Shown here piece by piece: positions 1 through 54,449 of a DNA stretch of 64,000 bases. Source of the stretch: Apiotrichum sp. Y4204 (taxonomy: Eukaryota > Basidiomycota > Tremellomycetes > Trichosporonales > Trichosporonaceae). Every line of letters begins with the position of its first letter. The stretch's first letter is position 1. The notes under the pieces were generated by a model, which saw only the letters and a program-made list of their open reading frames with translations, searched no databases and was not told the origin of the DNA. The stretch is from NCBI GenBank assembly GCA_025531455.1, contig JAMYHL010000010.1:248001-312000 (forward strand), in the 5' to 3' direction. The position numbers and the translations under genes were made by a program.

Positions 1-3000
1 ATGTAAGATGTTCAGCCGGATTTCGGGTGAGCCTAATTATCCCTCTGGCTGGGAGGGTGCCTTCCGGCCACGGCCGAACGGGCCAAGCTGATCTTGGAGT
101 TGACCATCACAAGCACACCAGGATCACGAAACACGTAAGTGTGCATACGACACACGACACGCGTGCACAGCTCGTGTTGACGACGGGGGCGCAGGGAGGT
201 GTTGTGGAGGTGAGCATCAGCTTGAAGGGTTGGGGGGGTAAGACACCCGGTCACCCGCCCCAGAACCCTGGGCCGCCCTGGGTCTGCAGGAGATAAGAGG
301 AACCAGAGTGCAGTCCCACATGCCGGCGGAGGGTGGCCGTCTAGGTCCAGCTTTGGCCGGGCCGAGGGGCGCGCACGACCATGCCGGCATTGGACGTCAG
401 GCCTGTGGCCAATGACTCCCTGGACGGTGGTGGACGGCATCCTGCATGTCATAGCCAATGCTGTAATAGCTGTAATCTGGCCCTGGGCCGCTCGCGATGA
501 TGCCTGCCCGTTGTATGCTGTCCGTCCCTTGCGATCGGACAAGACGAAACACCAATAAACGTAAACCCAACATGCAGTAAGTTACAAGGGTAGGCGATTT
601 AGAGTTGTTCGAGTACACGATGTGTAGCATACGTACATTCTCCGTCGTGTCGGTGTTCGCTCCGGTGTCAGAGAGGCGGGAATATGAGAGGATGTGCTCC
701 AATACGCGTCACCGTATCACCGTACAGCTGTACTACACGCACAGCACAGCGGGAGCCGCGCCACACTTACAGCATTCCTCCATCCGGTGCGCCCGGGCGT
801 GGTGGGTACCGTCCTTGGCATGGGCGTCACCAGCTACACGCGCACCGGTGTGCCGAACGACGCGTCACGGGCCAGGCCCGCTCCACTATGCAGTATGCAG
901 TGCACTATACTAATGAGTGTTTCAGAGTTTCGCAGAAGGCAAGGTCTGGCAATGTTTTGCTTCGGCACGCCTTCCGCGGCCGGTCACCCGCTCTCGAGCT
1001 GCACAACCGCGAAGGATCGACGGATGCGAAGGGGCGACGCACGGGCATCGGGCGCCTGGCGCTCTGGGGCTCAGATAGCGGCAACAGCACAGAAAACGGC
1101 GACACAAGCTGCATGTGGGTGGGGAGTAAGCTGCCACTGTACAGTATATCATGCTTTTAGCTCATGGCCCCACCCTGCACCACGCGTGTCTTTTCATGCA
1201 GCAGGGCGAGGTACACTAACGGATCTGGAGCGAAAACGCACTGACTTCACAGCATCGCGTTATTAACAACTCCTGGGACTGCGCATTCATGCGCTGCTGC
1301 CAGTTCAGTTTGCGCCGCTTGCGTTGCGTGCGTGGTAGCTTGTTCCCGAGCATACCAGTCCCGCAGCAAGGTTTGGCGGTCAGAGTACCAGGCCAGGTCA
1401 AGGTCCCGCATGTCGGGCATTCCGGGCAGCTTCGGCATTCCGGCCGGGTTGCGAGCTCACGGGGTCGAGGATGGTCACGTATCGCATCCGCCGAAATGGA
1501 GCTGTACGTGGCCCCGCAACGATGTCCGCGAACCCAAAACCTGGCAACATAATGTCACATGCGAGCAGTGTACCGCTGTCGCGAACTATCGCGCAGCTTG
1601 GCAGGCGTTCGATCTTGGGTCCAGAAGTGACAATGACCGGGATGGGGTTGTGAAGCTGGGATATGACCCTCGGGAAGCTGCAGTGCCACTTGCAGGCGGG
1701 TGTGGCAGTCACGCGCTGAGACTGCGCACGGTTACGGTCATGTCGTCTGCCTCCTGGCACGCGGCGCGTGCACCACATTTTGCCTCCCCGAGTCGCACTG
1801 CAACTGCGCAGCGGGCGCGCACGTACTACCCCGCGTGCACCCTCGTTACTCCATACCTGGCCATAGACCGAGACCGGCCCAGCACCGCCCCACACATCTG
1901 AAACGGCACGGGTGGGAGCGGGTTATGGTTCGTGAATCCAGCTACCCTTGGCGGGTCCGGCAGGTCGGATGAGGTTTCTCATCCTGAGGTCGTTTCGGTG
2001 TGAGCGGCTTGGACCAGGGAGGACAAGACGAGATTCTTCCCCCGCCCCCAATTAATTATCAGTGTGACAATAGTCACAAGGTTTGTGATAGGGATGTGAT
2101 AGGGTTGTGATGGGGGTCACAAGTCGGCCCGGCCGAAGAGGATCACACAAAGACGCCACATTGTGTGATGTGGACCCAATACCCTGCGTCGATCCCAACC
2201 ATCCCAGCGATCCTAGCGATCACCGCTCCCCGCTCCCTTTTCTCGTCAGCCTCACCCACACCAATCCCAAGCTCAAATCTAATCTGCAAATACGGAATCG
2301 CATCATTAATCCCTACAGATCACTAGTGTTGGCGGGCGGCGTACGTGTGGATGTGGGTGTCACCGGGGTGAACGTTTGTGGCAGCGAGAGACACACCACA
2401 TGGGTACTGCAGGTGTTGTCACCGTTCCTTGCGAGAAATCTCGGCTACACCTAACAAGAGCTGGGCTGGCAGTCGTGCGTCGCACACCGCACCCACGCAG
2501 CCGAGTCCAGGGCCAGGGACGGCGTTGGAGCTTCGCGAACCGCGAACCCTTCGGGTGTAGGCTTCTCGTAGCTCAGCGAGGCGCGTGCCTCGTGCCTACC
2601 TGTATGTCATCTGCATTGTCCGCTCACGGGGGCAACTCTGTGGCGGTGCCTCGTGGGCTTTGGGGTGGCATGTACAGTATGTATGTCCTGCATGTTCAAG
2701 CCGTTCAAGCCGTGATGAGGCGAGAGATGTCTGCTTGACGGCAGGCCAGGCTTGACGCGTGATGTCGCGGAGATCTACAAGTTCATTCTGCGTTGACAAT
2801 GAGGAACTCGTGCGCTGACCACTCGGTGTCTGCTCTTTCGGCCGGTGGTACACTTTTCGGCAGCTGATCTCTCGAGTGGGGAGAGATGGCCTTCTGCACC
2901 TGCTCATCTCCGTCCCTGTTGTTAGCCCCTCTCCGATGGCGGGCTGTTTAAAAATGTGCCTTGCACCCCTCGCAGTCGAGGGAGGGCCAGATGGTTCATC

Positions 3001-6000
3001 ACAAAGGTAGCGTTTGCCGTCTGATACACCGGAAACAAGATCCGGCTCCCGTGGGCCAGATAGGATGCCCGTTGTTCCTGGTGGGGTTTGCACCACGCAG
3101 CCGGATAGTGGCACATGTAGCGAGTCTCGGGAGCTTGGAAAGGGGAGGTGACGCGGTGCATGTTTGGAGTTGGCGGGAAGAGAGGAGATAGAAGGGCATC
3201 ACAGCTACAAGGAACAAGACGAAGAAGAAAATGAAAGCTGCCCCGCTGCCTGCCACTGTGCCTCCGTGAGAACATTGGCCCCGATTGGGCAGGCTCTCCA
3301 GACCAGCGCCCATTGTGGCAGTGACCCCAGATCTCAGTGGGTCGAGTACGATCTCTAGTCGAGGCCGGCCGGCGTGGTCTCGCGACAGTCCAGTAAAACC
3401 CAATGCGCCGTGTGTGGCAGTGCTGTCCGTCCTCCGGGGTGCGGCTGCCGGCGCCGGCGGCGTTGCAAGCCCGTCTGCCACACTCGCCTGCTCCGAGTCC
3501 TGCTCCTCCTGTCGCTGTGCCCCAAGTTCGAAGCTTCATCAAAAGCGTAACAGACTTGGAGCACAGTAGACCATCTCCTGAAGCCGTCGAGACGCACAAC
3601 GGTGTCGAGCCCTGTCTTCTGACTTGCACGGCCACCGCCCCCTACCACCAAAGAACAGTTCATCCCAGGTGTGGGCCAGTGGACCACGTGGACACTCCCC
3701 TTCTCGTCTGGGCTCCCCCGTGGGGCTGATCGGCCGGAGGGACCGCAGTCGGCCATCTGGTACATTTATTGGCATGCCGAGCGTGTTTTGGACGTTTTGC
3801 TTGACTTGAGAGTGACGAATGGCATTGTTAGAAATGCCCGAGACGGCCTGGCCGCTGGACTTTGGACTCTGCACGCTGGACAGAAACGGTTTCTGTACGG
3901 TATTTACTGAGATCCCGAAAAGCGAGACGACGGCGTTGGATGACCGATTCGCACGCCGATGACGAGTGAGCTGCGACAGCTGATCTGCAAAGCAGTGAAC
4001 AGGCTAATGTGCGGCAGGTAGATGCGGATGCATGGAGTGTGCATGCATTTGGTTCAGTACTGAAGAGCTGTGGTGTGGGAGCGGACAGTACAGTGTCGTA
4101 GGAAAATTGGCTGAAACTGAGATCCACCGTGGATCACGAGCCGCAGTCTTTCGTCGACGGACAAACCCAATCGCTGATCTCGAGGCAATCTTGCGTCCTT
4201 TTCATAACTAACAAAATACTTACTTGGAGAGCGCATTCCGGAAATCGCATCAGCCCTAACTGCTGATCTGGCGGGACGCACAGCTGTGCGCGGGTCGGGG
4301 GCGGGGGCGGGTACGCACATCCAAGATCTGAGATCTGTGCTGGACACCCAGAGAGACAGATCTACTAACGGGCCCGCGAGGGATGTCCCATCCTGCCAAA
4401 ATTATGTCTTCCGGGGTACAGAATTACAACGATGTAGATCGTGGGACACGCTACTCTGTGCCATACACGATCCAGCGACGAGAATTTGACATTTCGCCCT
4501 TCTTGACAGCTCAGCGTCCGTACGATCTTCTCACGGAACGACCAAGGAAGAGCTCAGAGCTCAAAGTCAGCCGCTCTGTTCTACAAGTGCAATTATTGCC
4601 GGACATCCCCGCAGATGCGTCTCAGTTTGGTACAGATCAGAGAACGCACGTCCGACACTCGGTGATCCACCCGGCTCACTGCCTGTTGAGCGAAAGATGA
4701 GCTTCAGGCTAGGAGATGACCGAAGACTATAGCGTGGCGTCCTCTGTGGGGCGGCGGCACTTGACACACCAAGCGCGTCGGCGCTCTTAAATTGTCGCTG
4801 TGTGTATAAAGAGAAAGGAGGAAACTGTCAACCCGGCTGGTCTGAGGACCATTGGGCCCCCACCATCAGGTTGGATATCTATAGTACATATTTTCAACAA
4901 CACAGCTTTGGCACATGCTTGGGAAGAAAAACGATTCCTTGTCGGATTCCATCATCCCAGACGTTCCCGAGCATCCCTACACGTTACAGTGTGAAGAGTG
5001 AGGCAGGCGTTTTTTGACATCCAGAGACTCTCGGGTCCGATCCTCGTAAGTCTCCGCCGATGAGCAGCACCGGCCTGTGCGCGCAATCGCCTTTTGAACG
5101 GAGTACCGGGGGGCTACGACGAGGCAAAAATAACAGACGGAAGGCTCATCTCATGCTGTATGGGCTGGGCATTCTCCTCTTTACGTCCAGGACACTTGGC
5201 ACCCCAAGCATAGCTAAACAAACAGTCCCAGTCGAGTCTGGGGACGTTTCTCGGCGGATCAACACTTCTGGACTCCTGGTTCAGCCATCAGTGGCCACAA
5301 GGCGGCATAATGTCATCCCACCTCCTAACACAGCGCGAGAGCTGCATGGAGCCTTTGCATTTTCCTTGTACTACTCTCACATAGTAACCGGTGATGAATG
5401 TAAGATTGATGGCGCCACTCTTGAAGCCAACACTGAAACGGACGCGAACGGAAAACAACTAACTCGATAGGGATCGAGCAAATTACCCTTGCAAAAAATC
5501 CAAATCACTACTAAACACACTCTCCCACCCTCAGCTCACCCAGCAAGCCGAACAACCCCAGCCGATCCGCACTCCAGCATCAACCGGTGTGTTAGCGGTG
5601 CGGCTACGGGTGACGAGTAGGCTCCTCCCACCTGTAGTCGTCGGCCCCTCAGATTCCTGAGGTCCAGCGTTCGATTCCTTGGAATTAAGCAGCTGGAAAC
5701 TGGGCGTTCCGCGGAGCACTGCGACCGGGACCCGGAAGCTCGCTGGAGGTATGCCAACCATCGCCCGCGGGTGGATAATACAGCCTCTGAAACGCGGTTC
5801 GGGTCCCCGAGCAACCGATGTGATATTTTTGATATTTTTGGCGCTTTTTGGCCGATCGGCCGACTTCTCTTCTATGAGGGTGGTTTGCGTTGGGCGCGAC
5901 GCGGTCTTTTGGGTAAAGCGTACAGTCTGCCTTGTCGATTTGACGGTCCGACTAATAAGCACTGTTGTACATCTGTCAACAACATTGCCATTCCGCGTCG

Positions 6001-50368: not shown

Positions 50369-53300
50369 CTACCAATCATCGTCCGGGGGTGGGATGCCGC
50401 CGCGCTTCGGCCCGTCATCGCCGTCGCTGTCGTCGCTGTCCACAATCTTGGCGCGCTGGAACATCTCGTCCATCTCCTGCTTCTTGCGCTCTTCGGCGGT
50501 CATGACATTTGCGGCGGGGACAAACTTGGGCCGCTGGACCTTGGTCGCTGGCGGGGCGGCGGAGAGCGGCGTCATGCCCGCGGGACACAGGGCGACACGC
50601 GACGGCGGCGTGTCCTCTCCTTGCAGCCATGCTGCGGCAGTGCTCACTGCCCGCGGCTCGATTGTTGGCACGTAGATGTCGTCCTGGAAGAACTCTGGGC
50701 GGTTGCGCGGGATTGTGAAAGCCACGTCCTCGATGGTGTTCGCCGTCAGGCGGAGCGCGTGCGCGACCTCGACCTTCTTGACGTCCACGGTCGTCTTCGG
50801 GAGGAACACAACCGATAGCTGCGGCGAGCTGCCGGTGAAGTCTGAGAGTTTGCTAATCGTGTCGTCTTTGATCTCGTACGCTGAGATTGTCCGTTCGCCC
50901 TTGCCCCACACCTGCAGGATGTTTGTGTCGGAGTCGTAAACCGGGAAGAGGACGCTCGGAGATACGCCAAGAGATTGGGTGGCGATCGTTGTGATCTCGC
51001 TGTCTCCAATCTTGTAGAGGTTTAGCTGGCGGACCGAGCCGCGTCCAAAACCGAGAGACAGGATGTGGGACTCGTCGACCCATGCGAGCTGGAAGCTGCG
51101 GGGGCTGGCATGCGCTTTCCCAATGACCATCGTGGCGAGATCGCGAGGGTCGAGAACAGCAACCCTCGAGTCCTTTGTTGCAACCGCAACCCGATCTCCG
51201 TAGGGCGACAATGCAAATCCGGTGATCTGTCGTCAGTCTCAGCAAAGGCCACTAACTCACGGCTTTGACACCCAGTTCCACCTGTTTCACCTCCTCACTG
51301 GCAGAGAGGTCAAAGAACCGCAGGCTGCCGTTGCCAAATTCGTTGGTGGCGACAACCAGCAGATCCTTGGCTGTCGGGTGGAACACAATCTGAACAATCT
51401 TGTCGATCTTGTTGCCGCGCAGCACCTGAGCCGGTTCCGGGCCAGGTCCCTCGACGCCCGGCTTCCCGACATTCCATACCCGCAGCACACCATCTTCACC
51501 GGCGAGAACGACGTGGTCCGAGTACAGGTCGACCGCAAAGTCCGCGAGGCCGACACCGCCGGAAAGGTAGCCGATCCCGCCGACCGGGAGGCGGCCGCGC
51601 TTGGACAGCGGGTGCACGCAGACACGGCCGCCGGGCCCGTCGATGGGGAAAACAGCTATGTCGGGAGTCGCCCGCAGGACAATGCTGTCCTGGTGGAGTG
51701 TAACGACAGGCGGGATGTGGTCGTAGCTCGGGATAAGCGGCGACTTGCCGGCAATGTATTTGCGAGACCAGTAGGGGTTGAAGCGCGCCGAAGGGGCTGC
51801 GGGCTGAGATGGAGTGGGTGTAGCAGCGGGCGGCGGAGTGGCAGCTGCGGCAGAAGGCGCGGCAGAAGAAGTAGGTGGTGAGGCAGGTGCTTCCGACTTG
51901 GCACCAGAGACAGGAGCAGACGACGGAGCAGAAGCAGGGGCAGGGGCAGGTGTAGCGGCAGGAGCAGTGGCCGAAGAAGCAGGAGCAGGGGCGGCCGCAG
52001 CAGCGGCATTCTTCGGCGCGTCCTTCTGCTCCGTTTTCGGCGCCGCCTCGGGCGTCTCGATAGCAAGCACCTCGCGCTCGGCGCCAAACTTGACGCGCAC
52101 AAGGCGCCCAGCCCACGGCGCGGACGCAGACACGGCAGCATCAGGCACCCAGAGCTCGTAGGCCGGCATATAGCGCTCGACAAACTTGCGGACCTGGTCG
52201 TCGGACAGGCCCTTGCCGCCGTTCTTCTCCTTCATACTGTGTTCCTGCTGCAGGCGCCACTTGAAGACGTACTCGTACGACGTGGGCTCGACGGCGATGA
52301 ACGCCGAGAAGAACGGGTACACCTTGTCCCCGAACTCGCCGAGATACGTGTTCAGCTCTTCTATCGACTCGAGCGAGTGCTGCGGGAAGTACTTGCCGTC
52401 TTTGGCGGCGTACCGCGCCTTGAGCTTCTCGGAGGAGAGCGGCTGGAAGCCGAACGACCAGCCCTCGAGAACGAAGACGTCAATGGGGCCCTCGATCGAG
52501 ACAGTCTCAGAGCTGCGGTCCCCCTCGCCGCCGCACAGCGACTTGTCAAAGATAGGCAGTTCTACGCGACCACCGTTGTTGATGTCCTTGACCGCCTGCA
52601 GGGTCTTTACGGCGAGGTCGATGTCGTGCGTGCCGGGTGGCCCGCGGCCGCTAAGGAGCGGGTTGTTGGGGTGCTCGTCGGCCACCTTCTTGAGTCCCTT
52701 GTGCGGGAGGTACAGGTCGTCAAGGGAGAGTACGGCGGGGCGGAGACCTTGTCCCTTGAGCCAGTCGAGGAGCGCGTCGCAGAGCGTCGTTTTGCCGCAG
52801 CCTTGTGGGCCTTGGAACCCGACCATGAGCGGGCCCTGGGCGCCGCTGGACACGTGCGCCTTCTGGTAAGCGAGGATGTGGGGCCCGATGTTACGGATCT
52901 TGTAGGCGGTGGAAGAGTAGGTCTCATCGCCTTCAAGCGGCGGCACGTCGCGGTTCGGTGGGGGAGTGGATGGGTGAGCGGGGAGGTCAGAGGCTGGAGG
53001 GGTCAAGCCAGATGTAGCGGCGACTACAGGTTTCGGCGAGGCCAGTGGGGTGGTCTCTGTGGCAGGCGCAGAGACTGCCGGGATGGTAGGGGGAGGGGGA
53101 GGAGCAGTGGCCTCCGACTTTGGCGCGGCCGCAGCCGGTGTAGTATCTGCATCTCCCCCGGAGGCAAGCTTCGGAGGACTCTGCGCCTTGCCGTTCGCAA
53201 TAGCCTTCTCCCACTCGCCCCTCCTGGCCGGATCTACGCTCGTCCTCAGCGGCATGTTATCCCCGCCGGCGAGCCAGTCGCTAGCGCTCTGCTCGGGAAC

Positions 53301-54449
53301 GGTGCCAAGCGGGTCAGGGTAGAGATCGCCATGGTAGTCGATGAGCTGGCGGCGGGGCACCTTGACGTGCAGGGGGAGAATCGTGTCTCCGTCCTTGTCC
53401 TGCGTGGGAAGGAGGACAGCCGCGATCTGCGCCTCCATGACGGGCAGCGTCGACCAGTGCGCGACGGCCACACTGCTGCTCGTGAGCGGAGACGGGAGGG
53501 GGTGCACGACCTCCTGGTATCCCTCTGAGCCTGAGAGCTCGACCTGGCGCAGCGTCATGTCGCCCTTACCCGCGAGGAAGACGATGCGGCGCTCTTCGTC
53601 GACGAGCGGCTCAAGCGGGCCTTGCGACGTGTCCAGTGCCGCGGTAAACGAAGTCGCGAGCCCCGCGGCCGCAGTGTACAGCGAGTACTGCCGCGTGCGG
53701 GACCGCGAGAACGAGGTAACGAACATGTCACCGCCGGCAAACGCCACGCGGACAGGCTTGAGCGCCTGCATCTGCGACGAGAGGTCGCGGCTGAGCTGGG
53801 GTGCGGAGCCGGCGCGCGGGTCCCAGATATGCGCGGCGCCCTTCTTCGTCACGCCCGCGACTAGGCGGCCGTCCGCGCTCCATGCGGCTGACCAGAGTGG
53901 AATGTCGTTCGGCGAGGAGAGAGTAAGGGCCGGTTCTGGCGCGGACACGTCATAGATCGACACGACAGTACTGGCACCCAGCGCGAGTCCGGCAGTGGTG
54001 GGGTGCGCCGCGACAGCTGACACCTTGGAGCTGATCGTAGCGCGCTGGGCAAGTCCGTCCCCGTTGACAGTATAGTAAGTGACCTGGAATCAGCACCGCA
54101 CTTCCTCCCAGCTCGCCGCTCTGGTCTCATCCCCACTCACCGAGCCATCGCCGCCAGCGACGTACATGCCACGATCCTCAAGGCGGCTAAGATCCCAGTC
54201 CGCGACGGCCCCAAGCTTGCCAGTCCACACATCCCCCTCGTGCTCCCCGACCGCTGCGTACCCGCGAACGCTGACGTCTCCGCCCGGAGTGAGCGTCACG
54301 ACATGTTCCGTGTTCGCCTTCACGACCGAGCTGTATGCCGCCGTGTTGGTCGGCGCGTTGGACGACAGGCCCGTGCGGTACCACGCGTCCCGCGGCGGCA
54401 CGGCGGGCACCGCGTTGCGGAATTTCGTCGCGCCAAACTTTGGGGCCAT
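50369..54449 (-). CDS. Tandem coronin (coronin-7/POD-1-like) with inserted D-glycerate-3-kinase/Tda10 domain
   Basis: Exons (minus): 54449-54141, 54083-51261 and 51226-50369, giving 1329 residues. Introns of 57 and 34 nt keep phase 0. Coronin unit 1 (about 1-400) starts FRNAVPAVPPRDAWYR and includes RRIVFLAGKGDMTLRQVE, LPLHVKVPRRQLIDYHGDLYP and ASDWLAGGDNMPL, as in coronin-7. After a Pro/Ala linker, a kinase spans about 490-755: Walker A GFQGPQGCGKTT (about 523), LSLDDLYLP, NPLLSGRGPPGTHD, IFDKSLCGGEGDRS, VFVLEGWSFGFQPL and YVFKWRLQQE. These match D-glycerate kinase (GLYK) and yeast Tda10. A second Ala/Pro linker leads to coronin unit 2 (about 865-1300): GGRVCVHPLSKRGRLP, GEDGVLRVWNVGKPG, DSDTNILQVWGKGERTISAYE. 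The C-terminus is acidic and ends PPPDDDW. The kinase and both linkers lie in one exon. Confidence 0.92.

Follow-up and report, generated by a model that had tools for sequence, protein, structure and literature searches.

Why should a coronin, with its actin-binding function, be linked to a glycerate kinase? The question was raised by Eckert et al. 2011 (PMC3203266) for Filobasidiella (Cryptococcus), whose class-3 coronin carries a D-glycerate 3-kinase domain between its coronin units. It returns with a gene of Apiotrichum sp. Y4204 that lies in the window, the whole 64,000-nucleotide stretch of DNA that was analysed. The initial annotation of this DNA took the combination to be undescribed, a claim that falls with that report of the same architecture. 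The fusion is real, conserved and known in kind since 2011. What we add is its reach into the Trichosporonales, the constraint on the kinase, the apparent insertion of a near-whole kinase and its probable losses. Among the open-literature titles and abstracts listed in our searches, none pointed to a later paper on the kinase fusion. A coronin, CNAG_05301, is included in a table on septins of C. neoformans (PMC11651612).

Gene structure and modules of the predicted protein

The minus strand from 54449 to 50369 can be read as a three-exon gene with in-frame GT...AG junctions and a predicted product of 1329 residues, a gene model drawn from the sequence. Exon 1 (54141..54449) holds the start codon at 54449 and residues 1-103 of unit 1, and its junction is also found in the second copy of the gene described below. 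Intron 1 (54084..54140; 57 nt, and 58 nt in the second copy) and intron 2 (51227..51260; 34 nt in both copies) each run from GTGAGT to CAG. Exon 2 (51261..54083) comprises 2823 stop-free nucleotides within a 945-codon stop-to-stop frame. It encodes residues 104-1044 and reaches into all three modules, taking in most of unit 1, linker 1, the kinase, linker 2 and part of unit 2. Exon 3 (50369..51226) supplies residues 1045-1329 and the stop, that is, the remainder of unit 2 and an acidic tail ending in PPPDDDW. In N- to C-terminal order, all on the minus strand, the modules are coronin unit 1 (53193..54449; residues 1-400, intron 1 included), linker 1 (52932..53192; residues 401-487), a complete GLYK/Tda10-type P-loop kinase (52053..52931; residues about 488-780), linker 2 (51786..52052; residues 781-869), and coronin unit 2 with the C-terminal acidic tail (50369..51785; residues 870-1329 plus the stop, intron 2 included). 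The initial annotation had given the coordinates, the motifs and the stop-free 2823-nt exon correctly, as the exons join in frame to 1329 residues. Its description of low-complexity linkers on either side of the kinase is borne out by the content of Ala, Pro, Ser and Thr, whose combined share is 70% over residues 401-480 and 85% over residues 782-869. Linker 1 is mostly of low complexity and its counterpart in the relative P0002 is predicted to be disordered; linker 2, also of low complexity, differs more between the two copies than any other part (79% amino acid identity). A scan for sigma-70 promoters and terminators was uninformative for a fungal gene.

The predicted product is a class-3 (tandem, coronin-7-type) coronin with two units in one chain. 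In searches of PDB sequences, coronins matched unit 1 over residues 121-378 (best Coronin-6, 7kyx, E 3.3e-22; Coronin-1A, 2aq5, 2.5e-21) and matched unit 2 more strongly (best Coronin-1B, 9qey, E 3.4e-40). PF16300 was above its cut-off of 27 bits in both units (45 and 48 bits), lying at residues 338-378 in unit 1. DUF1899 (PF08953), found at the start of the coronin unit, is a marker for coronins and stands outside the 2011 definition of class 3 in its accessible form. Two Pfam scans gave no match to this profile in either unit of the fused gene, and it does match the short coronin of the same genome. Because some fused relatives carry it (P0011, P0013, P0015 and P0029), we read its absence as divergence of a short motif and not as exclusion from class 3. 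The acidic tail, a candidate C-A (central-acidic) region, ends in DDDW and several of its positions are nearly invariant (alignment A2); its putative C motif was judged by eye only.

Between the units, residues 488-780 matched the PDB sequences of C. neoformans D-glycerate 3-kinase (6ckg, E 5.5e-65), GLYK (7xpc, 3.2e-45) and yeast YGR205w (1odf, 2.4e-37). Pfam and NCBIfam scans of the kinase returned weak P-loop matches, none above the curated cut-off. A structure model of 318 aa, built with 26 sequences, reached a mean pLDDT of 92.4 and a pTM of 0.89. Foldseek placed it closest to 6ckg (E 2.1e-33, TM 0.85/0.92, rmsd 1.5, 41% identity) and matched it to 7xpc and 1odf as well. A weaker Foldseek match was the N-terminal domain of the S. 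pombe Tad2 adenosine deaminase (7eey, E 3.7e-5), a P-loop kinase fold joined to an unrelated enzyme. Across 64 kinase sequences, of which 35 are fused, 44 positions were near-invariant, that is, filled in at least 55 rows with at least 97% agreement, and the window kinase carries the common residue at all 44. The Walker A motif GPQGCGKT (52788..52811, minus strand; residues 528-535) belongs to a pattern kept in 35/35 fused rows and in 25 of the 29 others; it was missed by P0081, P0083 and P0084, which have broken models at this place, and by 7xpc, in which the motif starts with Ala. Two further kinase patterns each fail in one fused row (P0001 and P0020). By its modelled fold and overall sequence, its Walker A and its other conserved positions, the module is a GLYK/Tda10 kinase. 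Both family assignments in the initial annotation were right, and its complete P-loop kinase between two coronin units is upheld by the PDB matches and by PF16300 in both units. A 2024 review assigns the glycerate kinase of plants to class III, which is present in yeast as well (PMC10970406). Catalysis by the fusion is plausible, and the names of its family point to D-glycerate as the putative substrate.

The shape of the whole chain was modelled on the relative P0002 (1182 aa, lacking about the first 105 residues), which stood in for the window protein. Mean pLDDT was 76.4 and pTM 0.42. The linkers of P0002 (305-415 and 718-789) fell below 50 in pLDDT and its kinase scored 77-95 per block of ten, a profile that looks like independent modules on flexible tethers. 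Since overall confidence was low, we make no statement on contacts or packing between modules.

Copies in the genome and distribution among relatives

The fused gene occurs in two copies, on contigs C2 and C131, which are 95.0% identical in nucleotides over the coding sequence; both are open and use the same splice sites. The second copy has the same architecture and 1334 aa. Between the copies dN/dS (NG86), resting on few substitutions, was 0.05 in unit 1, 0.27 in linker 1, 0.11 in the kinase, 0.30 in linker 2 and 0.14 in unit 2, so that in the kinase synonymous change exceeds replacement change. A decayed kinase is ruled out by these low ratios together with the 44 kept positions. The separate Tda10 paralogue that the initial annotation had proposed to look for is present at C99/C137, with 52-53% identity and an intact Walker A. 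A search of the genome with 6ckg returned the same four places (C2, C131, C99 and C137) and no third kinase type. The four loci looked at each occur twice (C2/C131, C99/C137, C57/C142 and C106/C150). Together with the size of the assembly, 48.9 Mb over 182 contigs, this suggests that it is hybrid or diploid.

A second enzyme-bearing coronin gene lies at about 779-3332 of locus L011 (C57:416000-423500), with a second copy on C142. In this short coronin an intron follows a Pro/Ala/Lys-rich linker and a dUTPase comes after it (PF00692, E 6.1e-29); the coronin side matches PF08953 and, partially and below cut-off, PF16300. A separate dUTPase is encoded at C106/C150. Downstream of the short coronin, the third frame of L011 contains, from 3669, an open frame of 523 codons made of repeated PNAL/PNAD units. 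For Tremellomycetes, Eckert et al. 2011 (PMC3203266) reported a short coronin that bears a dUTPase.

Among public protein sequences, 33 carry all three modules in the order unit 1, kinase, unit 2, and at least 24 shorter pieces are made of kinase and unit 2. The full-order tag had been assigned to 36 proteins, of which P0032, P0034 and P0035 were excluded because their N-terminal match was really to unit 2; several of the 33 begin inside unit 1 (e.g., P0001, P0002, P0003, P0006, P0007 and P0009). When the kinase part of the full product served as query, 38 proteins were retrieved, comprising 32 full fusions, three kinase/unit 2 pieces and three other fusions. The search with unit 2 gave 52; new among them were one full fusion, P0043 of Cryptotrichosporon argae, and 16 tandem coronins that have no kinase: P0039 from Vanrija albida, P0040, P0041, P0042 from Cutaneotrichosporon HIS471, P0044 from Mrakia frigida, and 11 others that include turtle and fern proteins. 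No tandem coronin of Filobasidiales or Tremella appeared in this search, in which the 7989 candidates with the most shared words were scored. A search with the kinase alone gave at least 21 kinase plus unit 2 pieces among the best 120 of 1205 matches. The fusion is present in Cryptococcus, Kwoniella, Naematelia, Kockovaella, Cutaneotrichosporon, Cryptotrichosporon and Tremellales sp. Uapishka_1. The order Trichosporonales includes Cutaneotrichosporon, Cryptotrichosporon and Vanrija, and Tremellales includes Kwoniella and Kockovaella; Mrakia belongs to Cystofilobasidiales and Naganishia to Filobasidiales. The closest named relatives of the window gene are Cutaneotrichosporon. Of nine relatives, six could be split into modules, and in these the kinase was about as similar to ours as the coronin units were; the C. 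neoformans protein P0013 aligns across unit 1, kinase and unit 2 (identity 0.54 for the N-terminal part, 0.62 for the kinase and 0.57 for the C-terminal part).

Could adjacent genes have been joined by misassembly or by a faulty gene model? The model is predicted from the sequence and would in principle admit such an artefact. Against it, one uninterrupted exon spans both linkers, and the 2011 paper had already described long bridging exons in Filobasidiella (PMC3203266). The initial annotation had proposed to survey relatives for the same architecture, for split proteins and for misassembly, and what emerged was the same module order in the second copy, on another contig, and in the 33 public proteins. 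On these grounds we reject the artefact as highly improbable.

The same type of kinase also occurs in other company. In P0036 and P0037 it sits on the C-terminus of a PF06824 protein and in P0038 (Quaeritorhiza) it is found together with PF10436 and PF02518, so this kinase type seems prone to fusion. P0062, a kinase whose record names Athelia sp. TMB, adjoins the Tremellomycete group in the tree, through either contamination or transfer. Vanrija humicola has a free-standing kinase model of 259 aa that starts at Walker A (P0071), and the tandem coronin of V. albida (P0039) is without a kinase; P0071 is either a relocated kinase copy or an incomplete model.

Evolutionary history of the fusion

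A tree was built from the coronin parts of 44 proteins. In it, 39 rows (35 that carry the kinase, both copies from this genome among them, and four that do not) split from Mrakia and the outgroups with 100/99 support. The Mrakia tandem coronin, which is without a kinase, falls outside the fused group; it groups with the fern rows, both long-branched, and the chosen outgroup did not form one side of a branch. P0041 was unplaced. The Vanrija rows (P0039 and P0040) and the HIS471 row (P0042) lie inside a group of 14, 11 of them fused, with 100/99 support. Because these kinase-less rows are nested among fused ones, the kinase was probably lost later in Vanrija and perhaps in one Cutaneotrichosporon (HIS471), if the gene models are right. 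In P0042 the stretch PGLPPLKGDEDDTSTS, which stands ahead of the kinase in sister species, is still present, and because PGLPPLKGDEDDTSTS persists, its kinase-less reading may be due to a false intron.

Trees of the kinase were constructed at two scales, and both carry long-branch warnings. With 62 rows, the 35 fused rows formed one side of a branch (77/67 support; 79% of 200 bootstrap trees). A wider, quick tree of 158 rows placed stand-alone kinases within the fused group; the fused label needs five changes there, at least three of them forced by well-supported branches. An AU test did not reject all fused rows as one clade (p 0.218); in this test P0061, a partial kinase from Tremella mesenterica that may also belong to a fusion, was scored as not fused. 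The simplest reading, with moderate support, is that the fusion arose once, in the common ancestor of Tremellales and Trichosporonales. The N-terminal segment of the fused kinase, GE(T/D)..STSYK.R, is found 7-15 residues from the start of stand-alone kinases of Naganishia and other relatives. In its strict form, with Walker A behind it, the pattern occurs in 22/35 fused proteins and 5/88 proteins of stand-alone size, counts that miss variants such as P0010, P0060 and P0081. Because the fused kinase has kept this segment, nearly the whole stand-alone coding sequence appears to have entered the linker. That the stand-alone kinase of Trichosporonales was in turn released from the fused gene is hinted at in the 158-row tree and not in the 62-row tree, and was not rejected by the AU test (p 0.208). 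A descent of the Kwoniella-type stand-alone kinases from the fused kinase of Tremellales was disfavoured (AU p 0.038), this group having been picked after seeing the tree.

Possible roles and comparison with known systems

We propose, with a probability of about 0.6, that the gene encodes a tandem coronin with an active kinase on flexible tethers, a near-whole GLYK/Tda10-type kinase having been inserted into the linker between the units, most simply once. The kinase would fold independently between its flexible linkers, bind ATP and phosphorylate a small substrate, probably turning D-glycerate into 3-phosphoglycerate. The coronin units would hold it at actin or endomembranes, and the stand-alone paralogue may serve bulk metabolism. 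Kinase and coronin activities may be coupled.

A kinase that is active could also sit inside the coronin as a frozen accident, its position functionless and selection retaining the enzyme as such. This fits the long linkers, predicted to be disordered, that flank the kinase of P0002, and the retention of both coronin units where the kinase is absent (Vanrija and perhaps Cutaneotrichosporon HIS471), by which a coronin can manage without it; the fusion of the same kinase type to a PF06824 protein also suggests a fusion-prone enzyme. Yet of the 39 rows that make up the Tremellales-Trichosporonales group in the coronin tree, 35 have retained the kinase, and that the short coronin of these fungi bears an enzyme too is a coincidence hinting at use. 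We regard an accident as unlikely on balance, and still as the rival with the most in its favour. The kinase might instead have lost its metabolic activity and serve the coronin as a nucleotide or metabolite sensor or as a structural spacer, and the stand-alone paralogue in the same genome could have freed the fused copy for such a role. A mere spacer would have no need of the 44 near-invariant positions that are kept, and in the 62-row tree it is the stand-alone Trichosporonales group, not the fused group, that has the longer branch (1.24 vs 0.23), which leaves this explanation improbable.

With the tethered, active kinase as the preferred reading, a broader and more doubtful idea is that Tremellales and Trichosporonales made both of their coronins enzyme carriers, with the kinase on the tandem and dUTPase on the short one. 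Small-molecule phosphate chemistry would then take place at, and perhaps be read out by, coats of actin or endomembranes, and the catalytic cycle or product of the kinase would regulate the coronin. The fusion is now known in two orders, and natural relatives without the kinase allow a comparison. One species that has it, Cutaneotrichosporon oleaginosum, is a workable biotechnology yeast, in which the question of 2011 becomes testable.

The nearest known system is the Filobasidiella fusion, which resembles the window gene in its kinase between the units, its long bridging exons and an extra stand-alone kinase in the genome; in the accessible text of 2011 Filobasidiella is the sole genus named for the kinase fusion, which is termed species-specific, whereas the window gene is from Trichosporonales (PMC3203266). 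The short coronin-dUTPase fusion of Tremellomycetes, as described in the same paper (Eckert et al. 2011, PMC3203266), is another small-molecule enzyme on a coronin in the same fungi, but it has a single coronin unit with the dUTPase at the C-terminus. With D-glycerate 3-kinase GLYK and yeast Tda10 (YGR205w; PDB 6ckg, 7xpc and 1odf) the window kinase has its predicted fold and conserved positions in common; the solved structures are stand-alone chains of 290-337 residues, whereas the window kinase is embedded in a scaffold. Coronin-7, POD-1 and other class-3 tandem coronins share with the window protein the pair of coronin units and the acidic tail at the C-terminus, but of the 52 proteins retrieved with unit 2, 16 are without the kinase, the Mrakia, turtle and fern proteins among them.
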